DNA of 64,000 nt from Neptunicoccus sediminis (GTDB lineage Bacteria; Pseudomonadota; Alphaproteobacteria; Rhodobacterales; Rhodobacteraceae): contig NZ_MDVX01000018.1 in the NCBI RefSeq assembly GCF_001719615.1, positions 1-64,000 of the forward strand, written 5' to 3'. Positions 3,541 through 38,118 of the stretch are shown piece after piece. Numbering within the stretch: position 1 is the stretch's first letter; the number at the start of each line of letters is the position of its first letter. The notes under the pieces were generated by a model. It did not search any database. It was given only the letters and a program-made list of their open reading frames with translations, and was not told the DNA's origin. The translations under genes and the position numbers were made by a program.

Positions 3541-3566
3541 TTTGAGTATTTTTGGAACATTGAAGC
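3541..3566 (-). repeat. 26-nt 3'-UTR element, copy A
   Basis: On the plus strand it reads TTTGAGTATTT, two variable bases (TT), then GGAACATTGAAGC. It sits 9 nt beyond the stop codon of the minus-strand DMT gene. Two more copies, identical except for the two variable bases, occur at 33377 and 38093 in the same relation to minus-strand stop codons. No stem-loop is evident inside it. Confidence 0.75.
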
Positions 3567-3575
3567 CCTTGGGCG

Positions 3576-4454
3576 TCAGGCCGCGGCGGGCTTGGGGGCA
3601 GGGCGGAGCACTTCGGTGAGCGCGGCGCAGATCACCAGCGCCGATCCGGCCAGTTCAGGCCAGCCGAACGGTTCGGACAAAAAAAACGCGCTGGTGGAGA
3701 TGCCGGAAATGATTTCGCCGGTGAGCAGAAAAGACAATAGTGTCGGGTTTAACCGTCTGGCGGACCAGAGCGTGACAACCAGCACGGGCGCGATGTAAAG
3801 CATGCCACTGGCGAGGGCGAGCAGCATGGGTTCCAACGGATCAGCCGGTGTTGGCAGGCTGTGGCCGGTGCCAAAGGCAAGGATGGCCCCGATCACCATG
3901 CCGCCGGTACATCCGAACAGACCAAGGGTTCGCGCGCCAATGTCCGGACCGGTGAAGATCAGGGCAGAACCAACGGCCCAGCACATCCCTGACAGCAACG
4001 CCAGCAAATCGCCGGCGTTCCAGTGGGACAGGCTGATCTGGCCCCGAAAGATCAGGGTGACGCCGCCTGCCGCAAGCAATAGCGCCAGCCCGTTGATCCA
4101 GCGCAGGCGGCGGCCCATGAACATCCATTCAATGGCAATGGCCCAAGCCGGTGCGAGATAAAACAACAGAACTGCGCGGACCACCGTGGTTTCGGTAATT
4201 GCGGCGGAATAAAGCATCATGGCTCCACCGATCAATGCACCGCTGGCCATGACCCGCAGATCAATGCGGCGGTTTGCGCGGCGGGCGAAGAATAACAGCA
4301 ACAGGACCGGAAGCGCCCCTGCGTTCATGGCTGTGCCAGCCCAAGCCCCGTCCAGTCCGGATGATTCGAGTGCGCGCACCGGAAGCCACCACAGCCCCCA
4401 AAACAGGGCGCAGATGAAGGCGAGCCACACCGGAAGGTAGGAAGTTCTGGTCAT
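3576..4454 (-). CDS. DMT superfamily (EamA) transporter
   Basis: A 292-residue integral membrane protein with about ten hydrophobic segments, in the two-fold EamA repeat pattern of the drug/metabolite transporter superfamily. The first helix carries a FWGLWWLPVRALE-type motif and the second half repeats the family's SGMCWAVGSALIFTG segment. Members export amino acids, metabolites or drugs across the inner membrane; the substrate is unknown here. Its start is separated by 126 bp from the divergent ABC transporter operon. The 26-nt 3' element follows its stop. Confidence 0.85.
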   Translation of the reverse strand: MTRTSYLPVWLAFICALFWGLWWLPVRALESSGLDGAWAGTAMNAGALPVLLLLFFARRANRRIDLRVMASGALIGGAMMLYSAAITETTVVRAVLLFYLAPAWAIAIEWMFMGRRLRWINGLALLLAAGGVTLIFRGQISLSHWNAGDLLALLSGMCWAVGSALIFTGPDIGARTLGLFGCTGGMVIGAILAFGTGHSLPTPADPLEPMLLALASGMLYIAPVLVVTLWSARRLNPTLLSFLLTGEIISGISTSAFFLSEPFGWPELAGSALVICAALTEVLRPAPKPAAA

Positions 4455-4511
4455 TTAATATATGCTTTCGTCAATCGATGGCCGGCGACGACCAATTTTT
4501 GCAATAAAAAC

Positions 4512-4557
4512 TTGTCAGGTGCCGGGCAACTCTATTTATATTGATTCATCAGTCAAT
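4512..4557 (+). promoter_or_regulatory. Promoter with inverted-repeat operator of the ABC importer operon
   Basis: TTGTCA (4512-4517) and TTTATA (4535-4540) are spaced 17 bp apart and resemble -35 and -10 boxes. Overlapping the start region is the inverted repeat ATTGA-8 nt-TCAAT (4540-4557), resembling operators of TetR-type regulators such as BetI of the choline/betaine regulon. A GGGAGAAA ribosome-binding site precedes the ATG at 4581. The identity of the regulator is inference. Confidence 0.45.
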
Positions 4558-4580
4558 AAAAACACAACAGGGAGAAACAC

Positions 4581-5534
4581 ATGAAGAAACTATTGTTGTC
4601 CGCCGTCTCGGTTATGGCACTTTCCGCTGCGGCGCAAGCGGCTGAACTGGGGGCTGTTGACGAGCCGATCAAACTGGCGGTGAATGAATGGACCGGTCAG
4701 CATATTTCGACCCATATGGCGGGGCGGATGCTGGAAGCGGCAGGTTACACCGTAGAATACACCACGGCGGGCTATATGAACATGTGGCAGGCGATGGCCG
4801 ATGGCGAGGTCCATGCTGCGGTTGAAGTCTGGTCGTCCAACGTGTCCGACCAGTTTGCCAAACTGCAAGCCGAGGGCACTGTGACCGAAATTTCCGATCT
4901 GGGTCTGGTGGCACGGGAAGGCTATGCCTATCCAAGCCACGTAGAAGAAATCTGCCCCGGTCTGCCTGCGTGGGAGGCATTGAAGGACTGTGCAGGCAAG
5001 TTTGCCACTGCAGAAACCCTGCCGATGGGCCGTTTGGTGGATTATCCGGCGGATTGGGGCACACCGGGTGCAGATCGTGTGACGGGGCTTGGCTTGCCGT
5101 TCAAGGCGGTTCCGGCAGGGTCCGAAGGTGCGTTGATTGCGGAATTGCGGGCCTCTACCGAAAAGAAATCCCCCTTGTTGATCGTGTTCTGGCAACCCCA
5201 TTGGGCGATGTCGGCTTATGATGTGAAATTTGTTGATCTGCCTGCGGCGGAAGAAGCCTGTTTCACCGATGCGTCATGGGGCGTGAACCCGAATGAAACC
5301 AGTGACTGTGATTTCAGCGCTTCGCGGGTGTTCAAAACGAGCTGGTCTGGCTTTGAAGAGAAATGGCCTGCGGCTTATGAAATCCTAAAGAATTTCAAGC
5401 TGGACACCGAAACTCAGCAACCGCTCATGGGGGCTGTAGATGTGGACGGCAACGCGGTTGAAGAGGTTGTCGCGGAATGGATGGCTGCGAATGAATCCAG
5501 CTGGAAACCCGTTGTAGATGCGGCGATCAACTAA
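4581..5534 (+). CDS. ABC transporter substrate-binding protein, glycine betaine/proline type
   Basis: A 317-residue periplasmic binding protein with a clear Sec signal peptide (residues 1-20, cleavage after AQA). The mature part has the OpuAC/ProX-type pattern: LAVNEWTGQHI near the N-terminus, YMNMWQAMADGEVHAAVEVW, and FWQPHWAMSAYDVKF, where Trp residues form the aromatic cage for quaternary amines. It begins a three-gene importer operon with the ATPase (3-bp gap) and a double permease. Downstream arginine/ornithine/proline catabolic genes suggest proline, proline betaine or a related compound as ligand, but glycine betaine is equally possible. Confidence 0.85.
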   Translation: MKKLLLSAVSVMALSAAAQAAELGAVDEPIKLAVNEWTGQHISTHMAGRMLEAAGYTVEYTTAGYMNMWQAMADGEVHAAVEVWSSNVSDQFAKLQAEGTVTEISDLGLVAREGYAYPSHVEEICPGLPAWEALKDCAGKFATAETLPMGRLVDYPADWGTPGADRVTGLGLPFKAVPAGSEGALIAELRASTEKKSPLLIVFWQPHWAMSAYDVKFVDLPAAEEACFTDASWGVNPNETSDCDFSASRVFKTSWSGFEEKWPAAYEILKNFKLDTETQQPLMGAVDVDGNAVEEVVAEWMAANESSWKPVVDAAIN

Positions 5535-5537
5535 ACC

Positions 5538-6602
5538 ATGACAGGGACAGGCGGGCCGGACACTCCGGCGATTGCGGTGGATGGTCTGTGGCAGGTCTTT
5601 GGCGAGGGTGCCAGACCTGCGCTGTCCGAGCTATTAACACCCGGTGCGGCCACAACGGATGGTGTGGCCCGCCGGTTAAAGGAGCAGGGGTTGATCCCTG
5701 CGGTGCAGGACGCCAGCTTTACGGTGAAAGAGGGCGAGCTGTTTGTGATTATGGGGCTGTCGGGGTCGGGTAAATCCACCCTGATCCGCTGCATGTCCCG
5801 TCTGGTGGAACCGACGGGCGGTAGTGTTCTGATGGCGGGCGAGGATATACTTGCCGCCAGCAAGCGCCGGATGATCGAATTGCGCCGCGAGAAGCTGGGC
5901 ATGGTTTTCCAGCATTTCGGTCTGTTTCCGCACATGAGCGTCATCGACAATGTGGCCTTCCCGATCAAAATGAAGGGGGTTGGCCTGAAGGAACGCCGTG
6001 CGCGGGCGATGGAGGTGATCGAGCTTGTCGGGTTGGGCGGGCGCGAGGATGCCTACCCGCGTGAGCTTTCAGGCGGGCAGCGGCAGCGTGTCGGCATTGC
6101 ACGGTCGCTGGCGGTGAATCCTGACGTGTGGTTTCTGGATGAACCGTTTTCGGCGCTGGACCCGTTGATACGGCGGCAGTTGCAGGACGAGTTTTTGAAT
6201 ATTCAGGCCACATTGCGTAAATCCATCGTGTTTATCACCCATGACATCGGGGAAGCGCTGAAGCTGGCCGACCGGATTGCGATCATGCGGGACGGGGTCA
6301 TTGTGCAGATCGGCACGCCGAGCGAGATCGTTCTCAATCCGGTGGATGATTACGTGGGCGAATTCAGCCGCGACATTCCTAAGGGCCGCCACATGACCCT
6401 TGCCGCACTGATGGAACCTGTGCGGGGCGAGACCGATGCGGGCGGGCCGGAGTTGCGCACTGCAATGACACTTGATGACGCGCTAAGCGCCTGTGCCCTG
6501 ACCTTCCAGCCGATGGCTGTGCGGGACGGGGATGGCAAAGTGGTCGGGGTGCTTCGCCCCGAGGCACTGGCCCGCGCGGTGGGCGAGGCGCATTCCTCAT
6601 GA
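5538..6602 (+). CDS. Betaine/proline ABC transporter ATP-binding protein (ProV-like)
   Basis: A 354-residue ATPase with Walker A GLSGSGKST, signature LSGGQRQRVGIARSLA, Walker B VWFLDEPFSALDP and the H-loop FITHD. It has the roughly 60-residue N-terminal extension before Walker A typical of ProV/OpuAA. The C-terminal 90 residues resemble a single, shortened CBS-like module ending in VVGVLRPEAL; osmosensing relatives usually have two, so CBS-based gating may be reduced. Its stop overlaps the permease start (ATGA) by 4 bp, implying translational coupling. It energises uptake across the inner membrane. Confidence 0.9.
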   Translation: MTGTGGPDTPAIAVDGLWQVFGEGARPALSELLTPGAATTDGVARRLKEQGLIPAVQDASFTVKEGELFVIMGLSGSGKSTLIRCMSRLVEPTGGSVLMAGEDILAASKRRMIELRREKLGMVFQHFGLFPHMSVIDNVAFPIKMKGVGLKERRARAMEVIELVGLGGREDAYPRELSGGQRQRVGIARSLAVNPDVWFLDEPFSALDPLIRRQLQDEFLNIQATLRKSIVFITHDIGEALKLADRIAIMRDGVIVQIGTPSEIVLNPVDDYVGEFSRDIPKGRHMTLAALMEPVRGETDAGGPELRTAMTLDDALSACALTFQPMAVRDGDGKVVGVLRPEALARAVGEAHSS

Positions 6603-8656
6603 CGGCGCGATCACCCCTGAAGGGGGCTTTGGACAGCAAGGGCAAACAGGCGGCGGCGCTGGTGGTGCTTGTGGGGCTGGTTTGTCTGCTGGCGACCCCC
6701 TATGCACCGTGGCTGGTGGCCTGGCCTTCGGTGCTGACGGTTCCGATGTCCGACTGGATTTCCCAAGGGCTCGGCGTGTTTTTCGAGGCTATTAAACCGG
6801 CGATGCGCTGGGTGAGCTGGGTGCTCGGCTTTGGCATGGCGGGGGCCAACTGGCTGCTGGTGTCAACGCCTTGGGTGGTGGTGATCGGCGTCACAACCGC
6901 CATTGGCTGGTATCTTGGCGGTCTTAAAATGGCGGCACTCGGCTTTTTCGGTCTGCTGTTTGTGCTGGCCTCCGGTTACTGGGTCGAAAGCATGAACACA
7001 CTGGCGCTGGTGTTTGTCTCGGTGCCGCTGGCGCTGTTGCTCGGCACGGCGATTGGTATTCTGGCCTATGAGGTCAGCCGCGTGAAAAAGGCGGTTGAGG
7101 CGGTGCTGGACCTGATGCAGACCATCCCGACCTTTGCCTATCTGACACCTTTGCTGTTGTTGTTCGGCTTTGGTCCGGTGGTCGGGCTGATTGCCAGCGC
7201 GATCTATGCGGCCCCCCCTATGGCGCGAAATGTGCTTTTGGGGCTGGAACGGGTGGACTCTGACATCAAGGAAGCGGCTGTCATGTCCGGTGGCACCCGT
7301 GCGCAGCAGTTGTTTCTGGTGGAGTTGCCCAGTGCCATGACGCAGATCATGGTCGGCGTGAACCAGAGCCTGATGGCTGCGCTGTCGATGGTGATCATCG
7401 CCGCCGTTATCGGCGGATTTAACGATATTGGCTGGGAAGTCCTGCTGACCATGCGCAAGGCGCAGTTCGGGCAATCCTTTCTGGCAGGGCTGGTGATTGT
7501 GGTTTTTGCCATCGTGATCGACCGCATGTCCGGTGCCCTCGCGCAGGAGCGTCGCCGCTATTCCACACGGGTGGTCTGGTGGATCATCGTGGCCTCGCTT
7601 GTGGCGGCGATTGCCTTGCGGGACATCCTGCCTGCGGCTGGAACGCTCAGCTATTTTGGCGGTGTTGCGGATACGGTTGATCAGTCTGTCGGGGATTTTA
7701 CCCGCAATTACGGGTCCACGCTCGATACTGTGAAGAACACGGCTATGTTTTATGTGCTGCTGCCGTTGCGGATCGGGCTGGATGATGCGGTTTTGCCCTT
7801 CACTTGGGGGTTCCAGTGGACTTCGGCCATGTCCGCTTGGGTCTATGCGATCGGTGTAGTTGTTGCGGCGGTGCTTGCCTGGCAGGGACGCCTGACGCTG
7901 GGACTGTGCCTGCTGGTGCTGATCGGGGTGATTGAAACCGGTGTTACACAACTGCCGTGGATTTTTGTGCTGGTGGGCGTCGGGGCTTTGGGATGGGTGT
8001 CTTCTGGCTGGCGGTTGTCGGTGCTTTGTGTCGGTCTGTTGGGGTTGATCCTGATTTCCGGCCTTTGGGACCGCGCCTTGCTGTCGCTTTATCTTTCGGG
8101 TGCGGCGGTGTTTACCTGTGCGGTGCTTGGCGGGGCGCTGGGGCTATGGGCCGCGGTAAGCACGACCGCTTGGGCGGTGATCCGTCCGGTCTGTGACATG
8201 TTGCAAACCATCCCACTGTTTGTCTTTCTGATCCCGATGCTGATGTTCTTCCAGATCGGAGAGTTCAGCGCCTTTCTTGCGATCATTGCCTATGCCATCG
8301 TGCCGATGATCCGCTACACACGGCACGGGCTGGTGACAACGCCGGACGACATGATCGAGGCAGCAACCTCAAGCGGGGCGACGGAGTGGCAGATCCTGCG
8401 CGAGGTGCGGGCACCTTACGCGGCACCGACGATCCTGCTCGGGTTGAACCAGACGATCCTTTATGCCTTTGCCATGCTGGTAATTGCGGCCCTGATCGGC
8501 ACCACCGGACTGGGGCAATCCATCTACATTGCGCTTGGCCGCGCGGATGTGGGGCTTGGTATTACTGCAGGGGCGGCGATGGCTATGCTTGCACTGGTGG
8601 CGGACCGGCTGGTGCAGGGGTTTGCCGAAGAACGCCGCAACGCGCTGGGGCTGTAG
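6599..8656 (+). CDS. Betaine/proline ABC transporter permease with two permease domains (ProW-like)
   Basis: A 685-residue, strongly hydrophobic protein with two BPD_transp_1 units in one chain. The first EAA-type loop is near DSDIKEAAVMSGGTRAQQLF (about 220-240). The second is near PDDMIEAATSSGATEWQILRE (about 582-603). Each unit is preceded by a DLMQTIPTFAYL/DMLQTIPLFVFL segment. Ordinary ProW carries one such domain and works as a dimer, so this is an internal duplication or fusion that would supply both halves of the channel. It is the last gene of the importer operon, overlapping the ATPase gene by 4 bp. Confidence 0.88.
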   Translation: MTARSPLKGALDSKGKQAAALVVLVGLVCLLATPYAPWLVAWPSVLTVPMSDWISQGLGVFFEAIKPAMRWVSWVLGFGMAGANWLLVSTPWVVVIGVTTAIGWYLGGLKMAALGFFGLLFVLASGYWVESMNTLALVFVSVPLALLLGTAIGILAYEVSRVKKAVEAVLDLMQTIPTFAYLTPLLLLFGFGPVVGLIASAIYAAPPMARNVLLGLERVDSDIKEAAVMSGGTRAQQLFLVELPSAMTQIMVGVNQSLMAALSMVIIAAVIGGFNDIGWEVLLTMRKAQFGQSFLAGLVIVVFAIVIDRMSGALAQERRRYSTRVVWWIIVASLVAAIALRDILPAAGTLSYFGGVADTVDQSVGDFTRNYGSTLDTVKNTAMFYVLLPLRIGLDDAVLPFTWGFQWTSAMSAWVYAIGVVVAAVLAWQGRLTLGLCLLVLIGVIETGVTQLPWIFVLVGVGALGWVSSGWRLSVLCVGLLGLILISGLWDRALLSLYLSGAAVFTCAVLGGALGLWAAVSTTAWAVIRPVCDMLQTIPLFVFLIPMLMFFQIGEFSAFLAIIAYAIVPMIRYTRHGLVTTPDDMIEAATSSGATEWQILREVRAPYAAPTILLGLNQTILYAFAMLVIAALIGTTGLGQSIYIALGRADVGLGITAGAAMAMLALVADRLVQGFAEERRNALGL

Positions 8657-8985
8657 CCTGCGCGGGCACTGAAATCATCGGGGGGGGGCTTGCGTCCCTC
8701 CCGAACCGCGACCCACAGGCAGGGTGAGGGTCGAAAGTGTTTACTTGGCGGAAATATCCTTTAAGAAGACCACAGGAACAGCGCAGGTGCGTATGGTTCC
8801 CGCCGGGGGATGGCCCTCGAAACATGCGCGATGACGGGATGACACGGGCTACATTGCTAGCTGCTGAAGCCCCCTCTCCAGAACCCCCGCCCGCTGAAGG
8901 GTGGTTAATCGAATAGGATGTTTGCGGCCCTGAGGCAGATCGGGAGAGCGGAGCATCTCTAACATGTTTGAGAAAGGAACACCGG
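8657..8985. other. Intergenic region upstream of arginase, no gene seen
   Basis: A 329-bp gap between the importer operon and arginase. It contains a G9 run (8681-8689) and several GC-rich, possibly paired segments, for example around 8800-8900, suggesting a structured leader. I could not match it to a known riboswitch. Arginase's ribosome-binding site AGAAAGGA lies at 8971-8978. Confidence 0.5.
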
Positions 8986-9942
8986 ATGGATAGCAAAACC
9001 TGTATCTTGATCGGCGCACCTGTAGATTCCGGCAAGCGCCGGCAGGGGTGTCTGATGGGACCGGATGCCTACCGCGTTGCCGGTCTGGCCGATACGCTGA
9101 CGGCGCTTGGTTTTAACGTAGAGGATCGGGGTAATGTGGCGATGGGTCCGGTTGAGCCCGCCAGCAGCGAAAATCCCGAAGTCTTTGCGCTGGGCGAGAC
9201 GATTGCTTGGACCAAATCCCTGAAAACGGCGGCGCGGGATGCGATGGCACAGGGGTTTCCCATATTTATGGGGGGCGATCACAGCCTGTCGCTCGGGACG
9301 GTTTCGGGTGTTGCTTCTTTTGCGAAAGAAAAGGACCGGCCGCAGTTCGTTTTGTGGCTGGACGCCCATAGCGATTACCACTCGCCGCTGACCACCGCAT
9401 CGGGCAACCTGCACGGAACGCCGGTGGGGTATGTCTGCGGGCGGGACGGATTTGTCGGTTTCCCCGAACTCGAAGCGCCGGTGCCGCCGTCGCAGGTCTG
9501 CATGATCGGGCTGCGCTCTGTGGACGGGGCGGAAAAGGCGGAAATGGCCCGTCACGATTTTATCCTGCATGACATGCGGGCGATTGATGAAAACGGTATC
9601 GCGCCGCTGCTGCGGGGGTTCTTGCAACAGGTGGCAGAGCAAAACGGGCTGCTGCATGTCAGTCTTGATGTGGATTTTCTCGACCCCTCTATCGCACCTG
9701 CGGTGGGCACAACCGTGCCGGGTGGTGCGACCTTCCGCGAGGGCCATCTGGTGATGGAGATGCTTTGTGACAGCGGGCTGGTCAGCTCCCTCGATCTGGT
9801 GGAGCTGAACCCGATCCTTGACGAACGCGGCAAGACCGCCACGCTGATGGTGGATCTGGTGGCAAGCCTGATGGGACGGCGTGTCTTTGACCGCCCCACC
9901 GAGAGCTTTTCCGGCCTGAAAACCGGCCCCGGCGTGCATTGA
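8986..9942 (+). CDS. rocF: Arginase (L-arginine to L-ornithine and urea)
   Basis: A 318-residue ureohydrolase. All Mn-binding motifs are visible in order: FMGGDHS, WLDAHSDYHSP and SLDVDFLDPSIAP, followed by DLVELNPILDE. The combination and length fit arginase better than agmatinase. The ATG at 8986 is preceded at 7 nt by AGAAAGGA; an upstream TTG (8968) would add MRKEHR and is less likely. It hydrolyses arginine in the cytoplasm. The next gene, ornithine cyclodeaminase, consumes the ornithine, so the two are very likely co-transcribed. Confidence 0.93.
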   Translation: MDSKTCILIGAPVDSGKRRQGCLMGPDAYRVAGLADTLTALGFNVEDRGNVAMGPVEPASSENPEVFALGETIAWTKSLKTAARDAMAQGFPIFMGGDHSLSLGTVSGVASFAKEKDRPQFVLWLDAHSDYHSPLTTASGNLHGTPVGYVCGRDGFVGFPELEAPVPPSQVCMIGLRSVDGAEKAEMARHDFILHDMRAIDENGIAPLLRGFLQQVAEQNGLLHVSLDVDFLDPSIAPAVGTTVPGGATFREGHLVMEMLCDSGLVSSLDLVELNPILDERGKTATLMVDLVASLMGRRVFDRPTESFSGLKTGPGVH

Positions 9943-9976
9943 CGCGCCCTAAGACAAGATGACTGGAGATATGAAA

Positions 9977-11026
9977 ATGACCAAACTGAACCCTTCAAAG
10001 CTCGCCATGGTGCCCTTTGTCAGCGTTGAAAACATGATGCGGCTGATCCATTACGTCGGGCTGGAAACTATGCTGACGGAAATAGCCGATTATATCGAGG
10101 AAGATTTCAAACGCTGGGAACTGTTCGACAAAACCCCCCGCGTGGCAAGCCATTCTTCCGAAGGGGTGATCGAACTTATGCCCACCTCGGACGGTGAGGT
10201 TTACGGTTTCAAATACGTAAACGGCCACCCCAAGAACACCAAAGAGGGATTGCAGACCGTGACGGCATTCGGCCTTCTGGCAAATGTCGGCAACGGCTAT
10301 CCGGTGCTGCTGTCGGAAATGACAATCCTGACGGCCCTGCGCACGGCAGCGACCAGCGCGATGGTGGCTAAACATCTGGCGCCCAAAGGGGCGAAGACCA
10401 TGGCGATGATCGGGAATGGCGCGCAATCAGAGTTTCAGGCGCTGGCGATGAAAGCCATTGTCGGGGTGGAAAAGCTGCGGATGTATGACATCGACAGCGC
10501 CGCCACAGCCAAAGCGATGAAGAACCTGGAAGGGCAGGGGCTGGAACTGGTGGCCTGTAAGACGCCGGAAGAGGCGATTGAAGGCGCAGAGATCATCACC
10601 ACCTGCACCGCCGACAAGCAATATGCCACGATCCTGACCGACAATATGGTTGGTGCAGGTGTGCACATCAACGCCATTGGCGGCGACTGCCCGGGCAAGA
10701 CGGAACTGCATGCAGACATCCTCAAGCGGTCGGATGTATTTGTCGAATACCCGCCCCAGACACGGGTAGAGGGTGAAATCCAGCAGATGCCGGAAGATTT
10801 CGCCGTGACCGAGATGTGGCAGGTGATCAACGGCACCGCCAAGGGCCGGAGCTCGGACCGTCAGATCACCCTGTTTGACGGTGTCGGCTTTGCGGTCGAG
10901 GATTTCTCTGCCCTGCGTTATGTGCGGGACCGTTTGAAGAATACGATGTTTTATCAGGATCTCGACATGCTGGCCGATCCCGACGATCCGCGCGATTTGT
11001 TCGGAATGGTCCAGCGGGCCGGATAA
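9977..11026 (+). CDS. Ornithine cyclodeaminase
   Basis: A 349-residue NAD-dependent enzyme of the OCD/mu-crystallin family that turns ornithine into proline and ammonia. The family's substrate region TALRTAATSAMVAKHLAP and the nucleotide-binding IGNGAQSEFQ are both present, as is NAIGGDCPGKTELHADIL in the C-terminal half. In-frame ATGs occur at 9959, 9971 and 9977; only 9977 has GGAG at correct spacing (8 nt). The gene follows arginase and faces putA across a shared terminator, completing an arginine to proline to glutamate route. Confidence 0.93.
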   Translation: MTKLNPSKLAMVPFVSVENMMRLIHYVGLETMLTEIADYIEEDFKRWELFDKTPRVASHSSEGVIELMPTSDGEVYGFKYVNGHPKNTKEGLQTVTAFGLLANVGNGYPVLLSEMTILTALRTAATSAMVAKHLAPKGAKTMAMIGNGAQSEFQALAMKAIVGVEKLRMYDIDSAATAKAMKNLEGQGLELVACKTPEEAIEGAEIITTCTADKQYATILTDNMVGAGVHINAIGGDCPGKTELHADILKRSDVFVEYPPQTRVEGEIQQMPEDFAVTEMWQVINGTAKGRSSDRQITLFDGVGFAVEDFSALRYVRDRLKNTMFYQDLDMLADPDDPRDLFGMVQRAG

Positions 11027-11040
11027 CCGGACACAGAAAG

Positions 11041-11065
11041 ATCCCCCTCCGGTAAGGAGGGGGAT
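11041..11065 (-). terminator. Hairpin terminator between ocd and putA
   Basis: A perfect 10-bp stem, ATCCCCCTCC / GGAGGGGGAT, with a 5-nt loop. It lies between convergent genes. Read on the minus strand it is followed by TCTTTCT, a modest U-tract, so it best serves putA, though it may act in both directions. Confidence 0.7.
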
Positions 11066-11104
11066 GCCTGCGGCGCGGATATTTGTCGAAAATGGAAGCG
11101 GAGT

Positions 11105-15181: not shown

Positions 15182-15208
15182 GGGGGAAACCTTTCCCGTT
15201 CGAAATCC

Positions 15209-26056: not shown

Positions 26057-26065
26057 GGCATCCGC

Positions 26066-27727: not shown

Positions 27728-28070
27728 ATTAATGCTCCTCAAAGCGGGCGCGGGTTTCGCGGCCAGCACTTGAATTTAACGATTATGGTCGTTGGGGACC
27801 CATGGTTTTGTGCCGTTCCAGCACCGCGGTTTGTATAGCACCATCGTCTTTGAATGGAAGGCTCGGGGGCGGGCAATACCGCGCAGTTAACGTTAACTTT
27901 GCGAAAAAGTTTTTCTTCGAACGTTAAGAAAGTGTGACTCAAAGGACAAAATTAGCAAAAATTGTGGCGAAAAATAGACCACTTAACCCAAAACCGTTTG
28001 CTTCGTTAACCGAGCATAACCTAAATGAGCGTAATTATAAAAATAATGCAGGCAAGTATCGAGGGCAAAA
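27728..28070. promoter_or_regulatory. pckA-chvI divergent regulatory region
   Basis: A 343-bp gap that is AT-rich over its chvI-proximal 170 bp. It contains a perfect 14-bp palindrome AGTTAACGTTAACT (27885-27898) and further GTTAA(C/G) elements, CGAACGTTAAG (about 27919) and TTCGTTAACCG (about 28003). These are candidates for operators shared by pckA and chvI. No gene is seen. Confidence 0.55.
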
Positions 28071-30442: not shown

Positions 30443-30452
30443 TCCGGCGGCA

Positions 30453-30890
30453 ATGACCGACTTGATTGAAAAAAGCCCTGTCCACGGCACTGCGGTTGCA
30501 GTCAACGGGCAGGGCTTTTTGATTATGGGGCCGTCGGGATCAGGTAAATCCGGTCTCGCGCTGCAAATGATCGCGCTGGGTGCCGATCTGGTTGCGGATG
30601 ATCAGGTGCTTCTGACGCATCGCGCGGGTCAGGTCTGGATGTCCTCACCAGCCCCGCTGCACGGGATGATAGAGGCCCGCGGCATCGGATTGCTGCGCCA
30701 GCCCGCGGTACAAGCGGCCCGCCTGAGCCGTGTTGTCGATCTTTCAGCCGAACCCGAGACGCGAATGCCACACCCCCGAAGTGTTCACGTAATGGGGAGC
30801 AGAATTGACTTGCTAAAGGGGCGCAATATTCCAAATCTGGCATCTATTCTGCTACTCTTGGGACGTGATGGACCAGTCGATGGGCGTTAG
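30453..30890 (+). CDS. hprK: HPr kinase/phosphorylase, short alphaproteobacterial form
   Basis: A 145-residue protein equal to the catalytic C-terminal half of Gram-positive HprK. Walker A GPSGSGKS (26-33), LVADDQVLL and the segment GMIEARGIGLLR are present; the N-terminal regulatory domain of about 130 residues is missing, as usual in alphaproteobacteria. It should phosphorylate HPr on Ser45 (gene at 32244). The start at 30453 follows chvG by 10 nt; the frame from 30384 reads through the chvG end. It is part of an incomplete, regulatory-type PTS. Confidence 0.9.
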   Translation: MTDLIEKSPVHGTAVAVNGQGFLIMGPSGSGKSGLALQMIALGADLVADDQVLLTHRAGQVWMSSPAPLHGMIEARGIGLLRQPAVQAARLSRVVDLSAEPETRMPHPRSVHVMGSRIDLLKGRNIPNLASILLLLGRDGPVDGR

Positions 30891-30922
30891 GCGCACGACG
30901 GTCCGCCGCGCATTGGGCTGTT

Positions 30923-31810
30923 ATGATTGAAAGACCGATCAAGGATGTGAACACGACGGTAGTTCTTGTCACCGGACCGTCCGGCGCCGGCCGCACCACC
31001 GCTATCAACGCCTTTGAAGATCTGGGCTATGAAACCATCCACAACATTCCGCTGGCGCTGTTGCACCGTCTGATCACGGGGCCGTCTGTCGGGCGGCCTA
31101 TGGCGCTCGGGATTGATGTGCGGACTCGGGATTTCTCGGTCAGCGGTGTGTTTGAAATTCAGGAAGCCTTTGCCCAGAGCAGTGAATATGAACCCTCGCT
31201 GCTTTTTCTGGACTGTCAGGCCGACCGTCTGTTGCAGCGCTATTCCGAAACGCGCCGCCGTCATCCGATGGCGCTGGCCGAAACGCCGGCACGCGGTATT
31301 GAGCGGGAAGCTGAACTGCTGGCCCCGTTGCGGGACCGTGCGGATATACTGATCGACACCACGACTTTGACGCCTCACGAGCTGAAAGCGGATATTGGCG
31401 AGTTGTTCGGGGCGGAAAACTCAACCGGTCTGGCCGTTTCGGTCCAGTCGTTTTCTTACAAAAGGGGGGTGCCGCGCGGTGTGGACATGGTCATGGACTG
31501 CCGCTTTTTGCGCAACCCTTACTGGGATGAGTCCTTGCGCGGTAAAACCGGCATGGATGCAGAGGTGCTGACCTATGTGCGCGGGGATGCCCGCTATGAG
31601 CCGTTCTTTTCAAAGCTGAAAGATTTGACCTCACTGCTGTTGCCTGCCTATCGTGACGAAGGAAAAGCGCATTTCAGTATCGGGCTGGGATGCACAGGTG
31701 GACAACACAGGTCTGTGGCTCTGACAGAAGAATTGGCCAAAGCCCTTGCGGCCGACGGTTGGCAGGTGTCTAAGCGGCACCGGGAAATGGAACGGCGCAA
31801 AAACGCCTGA
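30923..31810 (+). CDS. rapZ: RapZ/YvcJ-family nucleotide-binding protein
   Basis: A 295-residue P-loop protein. The loop GPSGAGRTT (18-26) has Arg24 where most relatives have the Walker A Lys. The C-terminal domain carries the RapZ hallmarks MDCRFLRNPYW and GLGCTGGQHRSV. In E. coli RapZ binds the GlmZ sRNA and regulates glucosamine-6-phosphate synthase; in alphaproteobacteria the role is less clear. It lies 32 bp after hprK, between PTS genes, as in many proteobacteria. Confidence 0.9.
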   Translation: MIERPIKDVNTTVVLVTGPSGAGRTTAINAFEDLGYETIHNIPLALLHRLITGPSVGRPMALGIDVRTRDFSVSGVFEIQEAFAQSSEYEPSLLFLDCQADRLLQRYSETRRRHPMALAETPARGIEREAELLAPLRDRADILIDTTTLTPHELKADIGELFGAENSTGLAVSVQSFSYKRGVPRGVDMVMDCRFLRNPYWDESLRGKTGMDAEVLTYVRGDARYEPFFSKLKDLTSLLLPAYRDEGKAHFSIGLGCTGGQHRSVALTEELAKALAADGWQVSKRHREMERRKNA

Positions 31811-31833
31811 AGGTTTGTGAAGGAGTGATCCGG

Positions 31834-32229
31834 TTGATCGGGATCGTGATAGTTGCGCATGGGGGGCTGGCCAAGGAATATCTGGCCGCAGCCGAGCATG
31901 TGTTAGGTAAGCTGGAAAATGTCGAAGCCATTCCAACCGCCGCTGAGGTGGATCGGGACGCCAAGCAAAACGAGATTTGTTTGGCCGCGGACCGTGTGGA
32001 CGAAGGCGACGGCGTGGTTGTGGTGGTGGATATGTTCGGGTCCTCGCCAAGCAACCTTGCCATGAAAGCCTGCTCCGGTTCGGGACGCAGGATCATGTAT
32101 GGCGCCAATCTGCCAATGCTGGTAAAACTCGCCAAATCCCGCCGGTTGCCGCTGGATGTGGCCGTGGAACAGGCGATTACAGCCGGCAAGAAATACATCA
32201 ACGCCAGTAATGGCCTTCAAATCCCTTAA
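31834..32229 (+). CDS. PTS system EIIA component, mannose type
   Basis: A 131-residue EIIA of the Man family with the phospho-accepting His9 in MIGIVIVAHGGLA and the later DMFGSSPSNLAMKAC. No EIIB/C/D is present, so it probably signals rather than transports. The TTG at 31834 is preferred because AGGAG lies 8 nt upstream and the family N-terminus starts there; the GTG at 31825 is part of that ribosome-binding site. It sits between rapZ and the HPr gene. Confidence 0.9.
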   Translation: MIGIVIVAHGGLAKEYLAAAEHVLGKLENVEAIPTAAEVDRDAKQNEICLAADRVDEGDGVVVVVDMFGSSPSNLAMKACSGSGRRIMYGANLPMLVKLAKSRRLPLDVAVEQAITAGKKYINASNGLQIP

Positions 32230-32243
32230 AGAAAAGGTGCTCT

Positions 32244-32510
32244 GTGCGTTTGGATCTCGATATCATTAACGAAAAGGGCCTGCACGCGCGGGCTTCGGCC
32301 AAATTTGTAGAAACGGTGGAAGCCTATGATGCGCAGGCAGTCGTGGCCAAAGACGGCATGGAAGTGGGGGGCGATAGCATTATGGGTTTGATGATGCTCG
32401 CGGCTTCCAAAGGCAGTCAGATTACGATAGAGACCAGCGGAAACCAATCGCAAGAGCTGGCAGAAGCGCTGCGTGAGCTCGTGGGCGACTTCTTTGGCGA
32501 AGGAAAGTGA
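32244..32510 (+). CDS. ptsH: Phosphocarrier protein HPr
   Basis: An 88-residue HPr with the active-site His14 in KGLHARASAKFV and Ser45 in GGDSIMGLMML, the site targeted by HprK. It uses a GTG start 14 bp after the EIIA gene. EI (ptsI/ptsP) is not in the window and must be encoded elsewhere. Together with HprK, EIIA and RapZ it forms the regulatory PTS found in many alphaproteobacteria. Confidence 0.95.
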   Translation: MRLDLDIINEKGLHARASAKFVETVEAYDAQAVVAKDGMEVGGDSIMGLMMLAASKGSQITIETSGNQSQELAEALRELVGDFFGEGK

Positions 32511-33373
32511 TGACTGAAAAGCAAAGTGTGATCCTTGAGGCCACAGGCGGGACCGAACCGTATAAGGCCTCGGAGCTTACTTATGCAGGTTCATTCGATT
32601 CTCCCCTCAAGCGGATATTGATCCAGGTCATCGAGAATCTGACAGGGCGTCTGAAACTGTTGTGGCTGGTGCGCCAGTGGGAGCGGGACGAAAATCGTGA
32701 TCCGGATTTTTGGAAATCGGTTCTGGACCGGCTGGACATCAAACTGACCACGCCGCAGGCGCAGCTCGATTATATCCCGAAGGAAGGTCCGCTGGTTGTG
32801 GTGTCCAACCATCCGCACGGGCTGGTGGACGGGATCGTTATGGCCCATCTTCTGAGCCATGCACGGGACGATTATAAAATCCTCGCGCGTGCCTTTCTGC
32901 GCCATGTGCCACGGATCGACAAATATCTGTTGCCGGTGGCCTTCCCCCATGAACCGGATGCCATCCAGACCAATATCCGCATGCGCAAGGAAGCAATCAG
33001 CCATTTGAAAGAGGGCGGATGTATCGCGCTGTTTCCGGCCGGTACCGTGGCCACCAGCGACACGTGGTTCGGCCCTGTGGTAGATCCCGAATGGATGCCC
33101 TTCACCGCGAAAATGATCCGCCAGTCCGGTGCGCAGGTCTTGCCGGTGTTCTTTCCGGGTGCCAACAGCCGCGCCTATCAGATTGCCAATAAATTGTCGG
33201 TGACGCTGCGCCAGTCGCTTTTGCTGCATGAGATCAAACACGCCATGCACAAGGATCAGGCTGTGGTCGTCGGAGAGCTGATTTCGCCTGAGGATCTGAA
33301 GTCTTTTGAAAAAGACGGCCCCGGTTTGATGAAGTTTCTCAAACAGAAAACCTATGATCTGAAACCGGCCTGA
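32510..33373 (+). CDS. Lysophospholipid/1-acylglycerol-phosphate acyltransferase family protein
   Basis: A 287-residue PlsC-like acyltransferase. The catalytic block reads VVSNHPHGLVDG, an HX5D spacing rather than the common HX4D. Later blocks are ALFPAGTVAT (substrate Glu/Gly motif variant) and QVLPVFFPGAN. There is no clear N-terminal transmembrane helix. ATG 32510 shares a base with the HPr stop (TGATG), so it is coupled to the PTS operon. The acyl acceptor is not known; relatives include membrane-lipid and ornithine-lipid enzymes. Confidence 0.8.
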   Translation: MTEKQSVILEATGGTEPYKASELTYAGSFDSPLKRILIQVIENLTGRLKLLWLVRQWERDENRDPDFWKSVLDRLDIKLTTPQAQLDYIPKEGPLVVVSNHPHGLVDGIVMAHLLSHARDDYKILARAFLRHVPRIDKYLLPVAFPHEPDAIQTNIRMRKEAISHLKEGGCIALFPAGTVATSDTWFGPVVDPEWMPFTAKMIRQSGAQVLPVFFPGANSRAYQIANKLSVTLRQSLLLHEIKHAMHKDQAVVVGELISPEDLKSFEKDGPGLMKFLKQKTYDLKPA

Positions 33374-33376
33374 GGG

Positions 33377-33402
33377 TTTGAGTATTTCCGGAACATTGAA
33401 GC
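33377..33402 (-). repeat. 26-nt 3'-UTR element, copy B
   Basis: TTTGAGTATTT, variable CC, GGAACATTGAAGC on the plus strand. It lies between the convergent acyltransferase stop (3 nt away) and the soxR stop (7 nt away). In minus-strand sense it begins 7 nt after the soxR stop codon, matching the geometry of copies A and C. Confidence 0.75.
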
Positions 33403-33409
33403 CGGTGGT

Positions 33410-33874
33410 TCAGATGTCTTGCGAGCGGTCGCCCAAGAGATAGCGGGGGCCTGTGCCCCGTGTGGCGGCCTTGTCAGCGGGATTATAGAGCGCGCAGGAT
33501 TTCAGGGACAGGCAGCCGCAGCCGATACAGCCGTCCAGCTTGTCCCGCATGGCTTGCAGGGCGGTGATTTTTGCGTCGAGATGGCTTTTGAAATGGGTGC
33601 TGATCTTTGCCCAGTCCCGTTTTGTCGGGGTGCGTCCCTGTGGCAGCCGGTCCAGTTGCTGTTTGATCTGGGCGATGGAAAATCCGAACTGTTGGGCAAT
33701 CAGAATGAACGAGACGCGTCGGATGTCGGCCCGCAGAAAGCGTCTCTGGCCGCCGGAATTGCGATTGGGGAACAGCAAGTCTTGGGATTCGTAGTAGCGC
33801 AATGCGGAAACGGCCACGCCGGTCCGTTCGGATAAGTAACCGATTGATATGGTTTTTTCGACTTTCGGGGGCAT
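33410..33874 (-). CDS. soxR: Redox-sensitive transcriptional activator SoxR
   Basis: A 154-residue MerR-family regulator: N-terminal winged helix (TISIGYLSERTGVAVSALRYYE), dimerisation helix and the [2Fe-2S] cluster motif CX2CXCX5C (Cys116, 119, 121, 127). It is oxidised by superoxide or redox-cycling compounds and then activates transcription from a promoter with an overlong spacer. The start at 33874 gives the family N-terminus MPPKVEKTIS; the frame from 33928 runs through the promoter. It is divergent from a VOC gene whose promoter carries a SoxR box. Confidence 0.95.
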   Translation of the reverse strand: MPPKVEKTISIGYLSERTGVAVSALRYYESQDLLFPNRNSGGQRRFLRADIRRVSFILIAQQFGFSIAQIKQQLDRLPQGRTPTKRDWAKISTHFKSHLDAKITALQAMRDKLDGCIGCGCLSLKSCALYNPADKAATRGTGPRYLLGDRSQDI

Positions 33875-33886
33875 TGAAAAAATTCC

Positions 33887-33917
33887 TTGACCTAAAGTTA
33901 GGTTGAGGTCGTAGCCT
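33887..33917 (+). promoter_or_regulatory. SoxR-controlled promoter of the VOC gene
   Basis: -35 TTGACC (33887-33892) and -10 TAGCCT (33912-33917) are 19 bp apart, the long spacer typical of MerR-family targets. Between them, CCTAAAGTTAGGTTGAGG (33891-33908) matches the E. coli soxS SoxR box at all but three of 18 positions. Confidence 0.85.
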
Positions 33918-33954
33918 AGTGTTGTCAAGCGATCAGATCAAGAAGGAGACTGTT

Positions 33955-34338
33955 ATGGCCGAGGTAAGACTGGAACATGCAAATATTACCGTAAGCGACC
34001 CGGCACGGACCGCGAAGATGCTGGACGATATATTTGGCTGGAAGATCCGATGGGAGGGCGAAGCGATTGATGCGGGACGGTCCATCCATGTGGGCGGGAC
34101 AGACAGCTATCTGGCGCTGTATCACAGTGGCACATCGCAAAATGCCGCCGGTGACAGTTATACGACAGTCGGCGGATTAAACCATCTGGCGGTGGTTGTG
34201 GATGACTTGCAGGCGGTGGATCGCAAGGTCCGCGCCGCCGGGTTCACCCCGGGCGAACACTATGACTACGAACCCGGAGAGCGGTTCTATTTCCACGATC
34301 ACGACGGGATCGAATTTGAAGTGGTCAGTTACCGCTGA
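33955..34338 (+). CDS. VOC family (glyoxalase/bleomycin-resistance fold) protein
   Basis: A 127-residue protein with two beta-alpha-beta-beta-beta units: VRLEHANITVSDPARTAKML at the start, and NHLAVVVDDLQAVDRKV then FYFHDHDGIEFEVVSY at the end. His, His and Glu could ligate a metal. AAGGAGA precedes the ATG at 33955. The SoxR-box promoter argues for a role in detoxifying redox-active compounds or their products; the substrate is unknown. Its last 10 bp overlap the convergent cobN end. Confidence 0.88.
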   Translation: MAEVRLEHANITVSDPARTAKMLDDIFGWKIRWEGEAIDAGRSIHVGGTDSYLALYHSGTSQNAAGDSYTTVGGLNHLAVVVDDLQAVDRKVRAAGFTPGEHYDYEPGERFYFHDHDGIEFEVVSYR

Positions 34339-37300
34339 CCACTTCGCAGTTCCGAACGAAGCTCTTGGAGCGTGGCCTTTGCCGAGTTGGATTTTGGTGT
34401 CCAGAGGCCGCGCTCGATGGCTTCGAGCAGCCTTTCGCAGATTTCGCGCAGGGCCGGGGCATTGTGGTCATTGATGAAATCGCGGGTGTCTTCATCCTCG
34501 ATAAAGGCGGCGTGGACCAGATCGAAATGATGCGATTTCACCGCGCCTGTGGTGGCTGAGAAGGCAAACATGTAATCAACCGTGGCGGCGATCTCAAACG
34601 CCCCTTTGTAGCCGTGGCGTTTCACACCGTCGATCCATTTCGGGTTCACCACGCGGGAGCGCACCACACGGGAGATTTCTTCGTCGAGCGTGCGGATGAC
34701 AGGGCGTTCGGGGCGGGAGTGATCGTTGTGATAGATCGGGCGGTCCTGTCCCTGAAGCGTGGAAATTGCCGCCGCTGCGCCGCCTTCGAACTGGTAGTAA
34801 TCATCGGAATCGAGCAGATCGTGTTCGCGGTTGTCCTGATTCTGCACGATGGCTTCGGTTTGGGAGAGGCGCGTTTTCAACGCTTCCTTGGCGCGGGTGC
34901 CTTCGGTTTTTGCGCCATAGGCATAGCCGCCCCATTCAAGATAGGCTTCACCCAGATCGGCTTTGTCTGCCCAGAGCCTTTCGTCGATCATCGCCTGCAA
35001 GCCTGCGCCATAGGCGCCCGGTTTAGAACCGAAGACGCGGAAGGCGGCTTCCTCGGTGGCCTCGTCGCGCAGGCGGGCGGCGGCGGGGTTCTGATCGGCG
35101 GGTTCGTCCAATGCCATCACCGCGCGAGCTGCGGAATCCACCAGTGCCATTTGCTGCGGGAAGGCATCGCGGAAGAAGCCCGAGACCCGCAGTGTAACAT
35201 CGACGCGGGGACGGCCAAGCACGGATAGCGGCAGGATTTCAAATCCGGTCACGCGGCGGTTTGCGCTGTCCCATTGGGGTTTGACCCCCATCAGCGCCAG
35301 TGCTTGTGCGATGTCGTCGCCACCGGTGCGCATGTTGGCGGTGCCCCATGCGGTGATCAGCAGGGTACGGGGCCAGTCACCAAAGTCTTGCAGGTGGCGT
35401 TCAATCAGCAGGTTGGCGGATTTCCAGCCGAGCTTCCATGCGGTGGGCGTGGGCACGGCGCGGGAATCCACCGAGAAAAAGTTGCGTCCCGTAGGCAGGA
35501 CGTCCATCCGGCCCCGTGTCGGTGCGCCAGAGGGGGCAGGGGCGACGAACCGACCGCTTAGTGCTGTAAGCAGGCCCTCTGTTTCGGCAGGGCCACAGGC
35601 GCGGACGGTGGGGCGGATGTGGGTTTCGATATGGGCAATGACTTTGGCCGTGGTTGGCAGGCCCGTGACATCTGCGCCCGTGATCAGGCGGGTTGCGAGC
35701 AGTTCGATACGTTCCACCGTGTCGCCATTCGTGCGCCACGGGCTGTCATCCAGATCGCTTAACTGTTGCGGGCGCGGGCCGTTCCAAGGCTCGGCCATAG
35801 CGCAGTCCAGCGGATCAAAGCCGAGGGTCAGGTCAGTCGCAATCGCCCGTTGCAGCGACGCATCCCCGCCGGTTCCATCGCCGCGGGGCACGCGGGCCAG
35901 TGCTGCGATCAGGTCGGTTTCCAGCCGGTCGGTGGGGGAGGCGCCGAAAATGTGCAATCCATCGCGAATCTGGGATTCTTTCAGTTCGCACAGGTATTCG
36001 TCCAGTTTGGCGAGGTCGTTTTCCTCATCCCCAGAGGTCATGCCTGCGTCCGTGTCGATGCCGGTGGCCGAAGTCAGGGCCAGAATTTCGCGGCGCAGAT
36101 GGGTCAGGCGGCGGGGATCGACCCCTGCGGCCTCATAGTATTCATCAACGAGGGCTTCAAGATCGCGCAGCGGGCCGTAGGTTTCGGCGCGGGTCAGGGG
36201 CGGTGTCAGATGGTCGATAATAACCGCCTGTGCTCGGCGCTTGGCCTGTGTGCCTTCTCCTGGATCATTGACGATGAACGGGTAGATATGGGGCATCGGG
36301 CCGAGGATCGCCTCTGGCAGACAGGTTTCAGACAGGGCCAGCGCCTTGCCCGGAAGCCATTCAAGGTTGCCGTGTTTGCCCATATGCACGATCGCATCGG
36401 CGCGAAACTGGTTGCGTAGGTAAAAGTAGAAGGCGAGATAGTTATGCGGCGGCACCAGATCGGGGGAGTGGTAGGTATCGGTCGGGTCGATGTTGTAACC
36501 GCGTGCGGGTTGCATGCCCACCACTGCGTTGCCGAAGTGGAAAATCGACAGGGCGAAATGCCCGCAGTCGAGTTCTCCGGCGGTGTAGAACGGGTCGGCT
36601 TCGGGTTTGCCCCAGCGGTCCTCGATTTGTGCCCGCACATCGTAGGGCAGTTGGGCATAGGCGATCTGGTAGTCTGCCATCGACATTTCCACGCCGCCCG
36701 TCCGGTCTGCGCGGTCGGTCAGCCAGTTTGTCGGGCCCGCCATGATCTGCGTCATCAGCGCATCGCTGTCTTCGGGGATGTTGCGGATGGTATAGCCTGC
36801 ACTGTCGAGCGACTTTAGCGCCGCCACTGTGGAGGCAGGAGTGTCGAGGCCGACGCCATTGGCCAGCCGGCCGTCTTTGTTCGGGTAATTCGCAAGGATC
36901 AGGGCAGCGCGGCGGTCCTGTGTCGGGGTGTGGCGCAGGCTGGCCCAGTTTTTCGCCAGTTCGGCCACAAATTCTATCCGGTCCCCGACCGCGCGGTAGG
37001 TGGCAATGGGGCATTCGGTGGCTTCGTCAAAATAGGCTTCGCCCTTGAAGGACACGGCGCGGGAGAGAATGCGACCGTCCACTTCGGGCAGGGCAACGTT
37101 CATGGCGATGTCGCGGGCCGACAGCCCGTTCAGACCGGAGGCCCAGCTTTCTTCGGAAGCGCCCGAAAGGACCACCTGAAACACCGGCGCTGCGTTGGCA
37201 AAAGCTGCGGCAAGCGGGTTGGTCGTCGGTGCGTCACCGGCATGGGGGGAGCCGACCGCGAAAGATGTGCAGTTCAGGATCACCGCAGGCGGTGCGGCGG

Positions 37301-38057
37301 TGAAGAGGGATTCAAGCGTTGCGGTTGAGATCGGGTCTTTCAGCGAAGCCACAAAAACCGGCAAGGGGTTGAGACCGGCCCGCAGCAGGGATTTGGTCAG
37401 GCGGTTGATCGGGTGCAGCCCTGCGCCCTGCACCAGCGCGCGGTAAAAGACGAGCGGAACCACCGGGGCATCCGGTGTCCAGCTTTGCTGTAGGGTTGCG
37501 AGGTCGGCAATGCCTGCACCCGGCCAGTAGATACCAGCCCGCAGCAGGGGTTTGGCGGGGGCGGGTTTTTCGCTGCCCTGTACCATCGCATTGGCGTAGG
37601 AGAGGAAGTTGGCGTTATTCTCGGGGCCGCCTTCGACCATATAGGCCCAGAGGTTTTCCCAATCCTCGCGCGGGACGGTTGAGAGCCGCCAGAGGTCCTC
37701 GTCCGGTTTGTCATCTCCGGGGAGCGCGGCAAAGGGAATGCCCTGCTGCCCGAGGTGTATGGCGTATTGTTCCAGCCCATATTTCCAGTAGCCTGTACCG
37801 CCAAGGCATCGCGCAATGACCAGTCTGGATTTTGTTGCACAGTTTTCGATGTGCAGGTCCACAGACATCGGGTGTTGCAGGTGGGTCAGATTGGCCAGCC
37901 GCAGGGTCGGGGCGTCGGCCAGTTCTGCACGTGCTTCCGACAGGCCGGCCAGTTCGGTATCAGCGGCAGAGATGAACACCACATCGGCCGGGGTCTGGCC
38001 CAGATCTACGGGTTCATTGTCGTCAATCGTGCCGGGCTGGGCGTTCAATAGGTGCAT
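34329..38057 (-). CDS. cobN: Cobaltochelatase subunit CobN
   Basis: A 1242-residue large subunit of aerobic cobaltochelatase, which inserts Co into hydrogenobyrinate a,c-diamide. Typical CobN/ChlH stretches are visible: MGKHGNLEWLPGKALALSE, ARGYNIDPTDTYHSPDLVPPHNYLAFY and the C-terminal WGGYAYGAKTEG followed by EISRVVRSRVVNPKWIDG. CobS and CobT partners are outside the window. It is the last gene of a cobW-GNAT-cobN strand group, with 72 bp between cobN's start and the GNAT stop. Confidence 0.95.
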   Translation of the reverse strand: MHLLNAQPGTIDDNEPVDLGQTPADVVFISAADTELAGLSEARAELADAPTLRLANLTHLQHPMSVDLHIENCATKSRLVIARCLGGTGYWKYGLEQYAIHLGQQGIPFAALPGDDKPDEDLWRLSTVPREDWENLWAYMVEGGPENNANFLSYANAMVQGSEKPAPAKPLLRAGIYWPGAGIADLATLQQSWTPDAPVVPLVFYRALVQGAGLHPINRLTKSLLRAGLNPLPVFVASLKDPISTATLESLFTAAPPAVILNCTSFAVGSPHAGDAPTTNPLAAAFANAAPVFQVVLSGASEESWASGLNGLSARDIAMNVALPEVDGRILSRAVSFKGEAYFDEATECPIATYRAVGDRIEFVAELAKNWASLRHTPTQDRRAALILANYPNKDGRLANGVGLDTPASTVAALKSLDSAGYTIRNIPEDSDALMTQIMAGPTNWLTDRADRTGGVEMSMADYQIAYAQLPYDVRAQIEDRWGKPEADPFYTAGELDCGHFALSIFHFGNAVVGMQPARGYNIDPTDTYHSPDLVPPHNYLAFYFYLRNQFRADAIVHMGKHGNLEWLPGKALALSETCLPEAILGPMPHIYPFIVNDPGEGTQAKRRAQAVIIDHLTPPLTRAETYGPLRDLEALVDEYYEAAGVDPRRLTHLRREILALTSATGIDTDAGMTSGDEENDLAKLDEYLCELKESQIRDGLHIFGASPTDRLETDLIAALARVPRGDGTGGDASLQRAIATDLTLGFDPLDCAMAEPWNGPRPQQLSDLDDSPWRTNGDTVERIELLATRLITGADVTGLPTTAKVIAHIETHIRPTVRACGPAETEGLLTALSGRFVAPAPSGAPTRGRMDVLPTGRNFFSVDSRAVPTPTAWKLGWKSANLLIERHLQDFGDWPRTLLITAWGTANMRTGGDDIAQALALMGVKPQWDSANRRVTGFEILPLSVLGRPRVDVTLRVSGFFRDAFPQQMALVDSAARAVMALDEPADQNPAAARLRDEATEEAAFRVFGSKPGAYGAGLQAMIDERLWADKADLGEAYLEWGGYAYGAKTEGTRAKEALKTRLSQTEAIVQNQDNREHDLLDSDDYYQFEGGAAAAISTLQGQDRPIYHNDHSRPERPVIRTLDEEISRVVRSRVVNPKWIDGVKRHGYKGAFEIAATVDYMFAFSATTGAVKSHHFDLVHAAFIEDEDTRDFINDHNAPALREICERLLEAIERGLWTPKSNSAKATLQELRSELRSGQR

Positions 38058-38092
38058 ATCGGGCAGGGCCTGTGTTTGGCGCGGGGGCCGGA

Positions 38093-38118
38093 TTTGAGTA
38101 TTTGTGGAACATTGAAGC
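38093..38118 (-). repeat. 26-nt 3'-UTR element, copy C
   Basis: TTTGAGTATTT, variable GT, GGAACATTGAAGC on the plus strand. It lies 11 nt after the stop of the minus-strand GNAT gene and before cobN. It has the same orientation and position relative to a stop codon as copies A and B. Confidence 0.75.

Follow-up and report, generated by a model that had tools for sequence, protein, structure and literature searches.

Several kinds of short bacterial sequence come close to the element that we describe here. Intrinsic terminators need no fixed far half, the Tus-Ter site of about 23 bp is asymmetric and polar, and KOPS are dense around the terminus. KOPS is 8 bp long in E. coli, according to PMC2680272. 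REP/REPIN sequences with their RAYT partners are extragenic and fall into lineage-specific classes (PMC3686654), and the DNA uptake sequences of Neisseriaceae are present in thousands of copies and differ in dialects (PMC3630211). KOPS and the uptake sequences fit our element in part. The element is real, widespread in its family and strongly constrained. As far as we searched it appears to be new to the literature, and no description of it was found among the best-matching titles and abstract openings on Rhodobacteraceae motifs and repeats, REP/RAYT, KOPS, termination and uptake dialects.

The window, by which we mean the whole stretch of 64,000 nucleotides that was analysed, carries three copies of a 26-mer (Table 1). 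As the first-pass annotation had stated, they are identical at 24 of 24 fixed positions around two free bases; all lie on the plus strand, and the pattern gave 0 matches in 100 dinucleotide shuffles of the window. The genome-wide search proposed in that annotation was run at up to 3 mismatches and returned 47 copies, with 0 for the reversed-pattern control, so that the three copies are not alone. The core of the element, GAGTATTT-NNN-GAACATTGAAG, has 51 copies in this genome (G000; 3.86 Mb, 72 contigs) at up to 2 mismatches, and its reversed control again has 0. Forty-one copies match the core GAGTATTTNNNGAACATTGAAG exactly, nine carry one mismatch and one carries two.

Table 1. Copies of the element and adjoining genes in the window.
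Feature	Position	Strand	Context
Element copy 1, TTTGAGTATTT-TT-GGAACATTGAAGC	3541–3566	+	minus-strand genes on both sides; EamA transporter stop at 9 nt
Element copy 2, free bases CC	33377–33402	+	convergent gap between acyltransferase gene (+, ends 33373) and soxR (−, ends 33410)
Element copy 3, free bases GT	38093–38118	+	between cobN (−, starts 38057) and GNAT gene (−, stop 38130)
Possible diverged copy, GGATATTTGTCGAAAATGGAAG	11077–11098	+	convergent gap (ends 11026 +, 11105 −); generalised pattern only; weak
EamA/DMT-type transporter gene	3576–4454	−	stop adjoins copy 1
Acyltransferase gene (PF01553/PF19576)	32510–33373	+	stop 3 nt before copy 2
soxR (TIGR01950, over cut-off)	33410–33874	−	stop adjoins copy 2
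GNAT acetyltransferase gene	38130–38582	−	stop adjoins copy 3

The architecture of the core is asymmetric, with 8 bp, a 3-bp spacer and 11 bp forming a 22-mer of 19 fixed bases, within which inspection revealed no inverted repeat. Fifteen core positions (2–8 and 13–20) are invariant across the 51 copies. The spacer shows no constraint at its first two bases, and its third (position 11) reads G in 44 copies; directly outside the core, a C follows in 45 and a T precedes in 38. Rfam at the gathering threshold placed no family over the element anywhere in the window, and a short unstructured element could escape such a search. The sole Rfam match in the window is a cobalamin riboswitch (RF00174, 41719–41938, minus strand, 99 bits); cobN also lies in the window.

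Genomic context was assigned with our own codon-usage script, which was trained on the window, so single calls can err, the more so in other genomes. The 51 copies of G000 are distributed over tandem gaps (27, of which 17 in gene sense and 10 antisense), convergent gaps (21) and divergent gaps (2), and one further copy is inside a gene. The closed relative G003 has 29 sites (8 convergent, 13 tandem sense, 4 tandem antisense, 2 divergent, 2 inside called genes), a set that was found by a loose pattern and may include a few chance matches. For the distant closed genome G301, 54 of 95 copies are in tandem gaps (34 sense, 20 antisense), 25 in convergent gaps, 8 in divergent gaps and 8 inside genes. 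Copies are found preferentially at gene ends, seldom in divergent gaps, and in either orientation relative to genes. The first-pass annotation had taken the element for a dispersed, constrained sequence tied to gene 3′ ends, and both the 51 core copies and their context agree with this; the preference for 3′ ends that it had raised is present, but both orientations relative to the gene strand occur.

For gene ends on the GAAG side, the distance from the stop to the element is about 10 nt, with medians of 8–14 nt in three genomes (convergent/tandem: 11/10 in G000, 8/14 in G003, 9/12 nt in G301). Our gene calls reproduce the minus-strand stops at 9, 7 and 11 nt from copies 1, 2 and 3 that had been annotated. 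The description of every copy as lying just past a minus-strand stop is correct in these distances; it gives only half the picture, since copy 2 occupies a convergent gap and also follows the plus-strand acyltransferase stop by 3 nt. Sense-only and antisense-only sites both exist (17 and 10 of 51 in G000, 34 and 20 of 95 in G301), and therefore no single RNA strand bears the element everywhere. The orientation to the transcript, which a 3′-UTR RNA signal would keep fixed, is variable.

To follow the sites in sister genomes, loci of Amylibacter cionae and of the metagenome-assembled genome (MAG) P03SST1bin.12 were retrieved by the exact core and then aligned to the G000 sites. An exact core stands at the same place in a sister genome at no fewer than 44 of the 51 sites, namely at least 30 in A. 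cionae and at least 41 in the MAG by our own labelling, with L111 and L112 counted with the MAG. Two of the other seven sites (L015 and L131) have a partner in G003, though no exact sister core among the loci listed. Over 72 aligned orthologous pairs, core positions differ in 0–8% and flanks in 14–44%, where retrieval by the exact core pulls sister-side core divergence toward zero and the G000 side was allowed up to 2 mismatches. The three spacer bases differ in 36, 42 and 14% of these pairs. A neutral 19-base core would rarely survive at so many sites at such distances. Recent transposition is disfavoured, because the sites are orthologous and their core is nearly frozen.

All three window copies have sister loci that carry the element at the same site, copy 1 with an exact core in two of them. 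G003 holds the sites of copy 2 (L280) and copy 3 (L262) in another dialect, and the comparison of flanks did not establish a G003 partner for copy 1.

Across the family, a generalised pattern, GRDTATTTNNNVMANRWDGAAG, matches in 126 of 246 genomes, 87 of which have at least 5 copies and 39 fewer than 5. This bears out the tentative mention, in the first-pass annotation, of related sequences in other Rhodobacteraceae. The maximum is 148 copies (G147), and the reversed control has 4 matches in total over the 246 genomes. A zero count means only that this pattern is missing: G033 has 0 matches to it, yet 18 to the core of G000. In a class-wide sample of 290 genomes, 31 of the 285 from other families have one or two matches, as compared with one to three matches of the reversed control in 14 of 285, and none of these 285 genomes holds a set of copies. 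When 72,556 plasmid records were searched with a single spelling from the dialect of one relative, there was 1 full match and another of 19 bases. A phage origin was rejected, the exact core being found in only 2 IMG/VR stretches. In L115, an IMG/VR contig that is possibly host DNA, two facing copies lie 9 bp apart (8379–8431). Strings of the form hairpin-GGATATTT-AAGAAGAAG may also occur in Rhodobacter and Ruegeria.

The spelling differs from genome to genome. G301 has 79 copies of GAGTATTTNNNCCAAGAAGAAG, 13 of GGATATTTNNNGCACAAAGAAG and 3 of GGATATTTNNNGCAAGAGGAAG, and of the 55 matches listed for G143, from a total of 74, just one departs from GAGTATTTNNNCCAAGATGAAG; further genomes show spellings of their own and a varied spacer among the matches listed. 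Near the end of rplQ, 5 of 30 genomes carry a copy no more than 190 nt from the stop; it reads GAACATTGAAG in G000 and G015, GAACAATGAAG in G031, GAACAAAGAAG in G003 and GAACAATGATG in G220. At sites common to both genomes, including those of window copies 2 and 3, G003 has GAACAAAGAAR where G000 has GAACATTGAAG. Comparison of flanks pairs 11 of the 29 G003 sites with G000 sites, these two window copies among them. Both T-to-A changes (TT to AA) are present in 9 of the 11 pairs, one of the nine being paired on its left flank alone; of the remaining two, one has a class change (single flank) and one is of uncertain register. Such concerted change of letters at fixed sites would imply a common trans-acting reader or a homogenising drive. 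Four genomes of the same genus (G009, G013, G017 and G020) lack a copy up to 190 nt from the rplQ stop and gave no match to the G000 core at up to 2 mismatches. The element may be lost or respelled in this part of the genus, and these members are useful for finding the reader.

For the gene ends beside the element we further counted intrinsic terminators, up to 110 nt from the stop. They are scarcer on the GAAG side, where 3 of 29 ends have one in G000, 3 of 12 in G003 and 8 of 43 in G301, than on the sense side, with 20 of 37, 12 of 24 and 24 of 54 ends, where the element's own TATTT may have passed as a T-run. The difference is significant in G000 (p 0.0002) and G301 (p 0.009) and not in G003 (p 0.28). 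Element-free ends have a terminator in 22 of 88, 43 of 130 and 44 of 175 cases, respectively, and the GAAG-side ends do not differ significantly from them (p 0.12, 0.75 and 0.43). The terminator counts therefore do not show replacement, and a role of the element as a substitute terminator was set aside. About half of the sense-side ends already own an intrinsic terminator.

The element resembles intrinsic terminators in that it often lies directly after a terminator hairpin and T-run, or after a GC-rich module; it differs in being a 22-mer with a fixed far half, and many copies have no hairpin before them. In G000 and G003 it often starts within the T-run. In G301, 65 of 95 copies are preceded by a GC-rich stretch ending in CCCCCG, CCTCCGGCGG or similar, often an inverted repeat by eye, and 11 of 95 have a facing copy within 260 nt. 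The part that these genomes share is the 22-mer, and the modules of G301 are separate and variable. On contig C1 of G301 (for example L305–L372), GC-rich modules whose stems vary yet pair by eye (GGGGGCGCTGCCCCC, then CCCCCG) stand directly before the 22-mer.

On the chromosome, the orientation of the element follows replication in this genus. Local GC skew in element orientation is positive at 46 of 51 sites in G000, at 70 of 82 sister sites among those listed, which are not independent of G000, and at 28 of 29 sites in G003; the leading strand was deduced from GC skew, and local skew over 3 kb is partly set by gene direction. For the G000 and sister sites, third-codon skew in element orientation is positive for plus and minus genes alike, and the replication-like component of the skew exceeds random orientation by about 5 and 6.6 sd. 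The G003 contig opens with a gene that we take to be dnaA. Copies at 0.2–1.07 Mb are on the plus strand in 10 of 10 cases, and those from 2.1 Mb on are on the minus strand in 14 of 16. We notice that contig C1 of G003 has 0 copies in about 630 kb around the likely terminus (1.31–1.94 Mb).

Composition alone would place 61–64% of copies on the leading strand in G000, 53–76% in G003 and 56–60% in G301. The observed 90% in G000 and 97% in G003 exceed these values (p 2e-5 and 0.004) and also the 56% share of coding sequence on that strand. In G301, 59 of 95 copies are on the leading strand according to dnaA and sampled skew, with the terminus placed by eye at 2.655 Mb, and this is the level that composition predicts. 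Evidence of a polarity that composition cannot explain is thus confined to this genus; pure base composition is insufficient as its cause in G000 and G003 and sufficient in G301. G301 copies without a GC module are leading in 23 of 30 cases (p 0.03), as against 36 of 65 with one, in a post hoc split; its rule, based on the bases immediately preceding the core, was set after viewing the data and leaves a few copies misplaced. Local skew of 3-kb loci is positive at 13 of 15 sites in G301 and at 12 of 15 distinct ones in G143. The sampled GC skew of G143 contig C1 flips sign many times along 3.9 Mb, as if the contig had often been rearranged.

The bias in G000 and G003, beyond composition and coding share, would suit a chromosome-polarity signal, that is, a one-way leading-strand mark read by a DNA motor or fork-associated factor in the way of KOPS, Chi or Ter. 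Like KOPS, which point from origin to terminus, the element is oriented with the leading strand in this genus (46 of 51 and 28 of 29 by local skew), but with 59 of 95 copies in G301, and 36 of 65 of the GC-module type, it shows no polarity there beyond composition. It also departs from KOPS in its 19 fixed bases, sparse and intergenic sites, dialects and absence near the likely terminus of G003. Tus-Ter, to which it is similar as an asymmetric site of about the same length, was rejected: Tus (PF05472) is in 0 of 12 genomes, with the E. coli control positive, and the sites are spread over the chromosome. On balance we consider a polarity signal rather unlikely. Gene-end placement and occasional facing pairs also resemble those of uptake sequences, and molecular drive might maintain the element as a watermark, possibly in connection with gene transfer within the family. 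Uniformity within a genome and dialects between genera resemble those in PMC3630211, yet the element reaches tens to 148 copies per genome over 246 genomes as compared with the thousands given there. Conservation at single sites and the leading-strand bias of this genus are unexpected for such a watermark, which we hold to be improbable.

An RNA-level element of the 3′-UTR (an sRNA target, an RNA-binding protein site or a processing signal), doubtful to the same degree, would explain why the distance from the stop is so uniform on the antisense side, at about 10 nt; the strict core suits base pairing, and the dialects could track an sRNA. The first-pass annotation had placed the constraint on the 3′-UTR itself, which is consistent with the antisense copies of three genomes but is not the sole account. 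As the only explanation, an RNA signal in minus-strand sense does not hold, as 17 of 51 sites have sense-only and 10 antisense-only neighbours and the strand tracks replication better than transcription in this genus; Rfam at its gathering threshold also gave no family over the element in the window. Least probable, and in our judgement very unlikely, is a non-autonomous mobile repeat of the REP, REPIN or MITE kind. The element is dispersed and intergenic and has lineage-specific classes, in line with the REP systems in PMC3686654, and G301 adds GC-rich modules beside the core and facing pairs (11 of 95). Its core is, however, non-palindromic by inspection, its sites are orthologous and conserved in place, and 30 inspected copies have the short core in common, with flanks seemingly unrelated. 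The cognate Y1 transposase (RAYT/IS200 domain, PF01797) is missing from 15 of 16 element-rich genomes, being found in G305 and in none of G000, G031 and G015, while controls were positive in 5 of 14; a REP/RAYT identity is disfavoured.

Our preferred reading, which we put forward tentatively and at somewhat under an even chance, is that the element is a double-stranded DNA site of a putative sequence-specific factor marking the ends of transcription units. What is observed in its support is the strict core, the free spacer, the gene-end placement both ways, the conservation in place, the concerted dialects and the leading-strand bias of the genus. Because the sites have no RNA strand in common, we favour a reader of DNA. 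A core this strict and asymmetric, broken by a free spacer, suggests a protein that recognises the site in two parts; the placement at gene ends hints at a border that separates transcription units, and the bias of the genus hints that it is important how a site faces the forks. We speculate that the reader is a protein acting on DNA rather than RNA, and that the bound site forms a boundary or roadblock limiting transcription that would cross into the next gene. Help may come from the left of the site, through an intrinsic-terminator T-run (a frequent neighbour in this genus) or a GC-rich module (frequent in G301). The strand bias may reflect a bound complex with one face that forks pass easily. 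Against a roadblock, a polymerase arriving from the GAAG side and stalled at the site edge would, given the footprint of polymerase, have brought its active site only to the vicinity of the stop codon or to a point short of it, because the element starts about 10 nt past the stop on this side.

A bolder form of this DNA-site reading, unlikely as a whole, would have gene ends fitted with one-way gates, from tens to about 150 of them, that a fast-evolving factor of the family reads. Once bound, the gates would restrain transcription, head-on transcription above all, forks would pass from the GAGTATTT side, and factor and sites would change specificity together and so give rise to the dialects.

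Letters that shift together at dozens of fixed sites document how an entire recognition code changes in nature. If a protein reads the sites, it would be a new genome-wide factor of a large bacterial family, one that the dialects open to genetic tests and pull-down. If the element marks gene ends, it would bear on how transcription units are separated in compact genomes and on their relation to replication direction. An autoregulated factor encoded beside the divergent sites listed for G000, G003 and G301 was considered and dropped, as their neighbours, judged from translations by eye, share no regulator. One right-hand neighbour of a G301 divergent site is presumably a regulator of the Lrp type.
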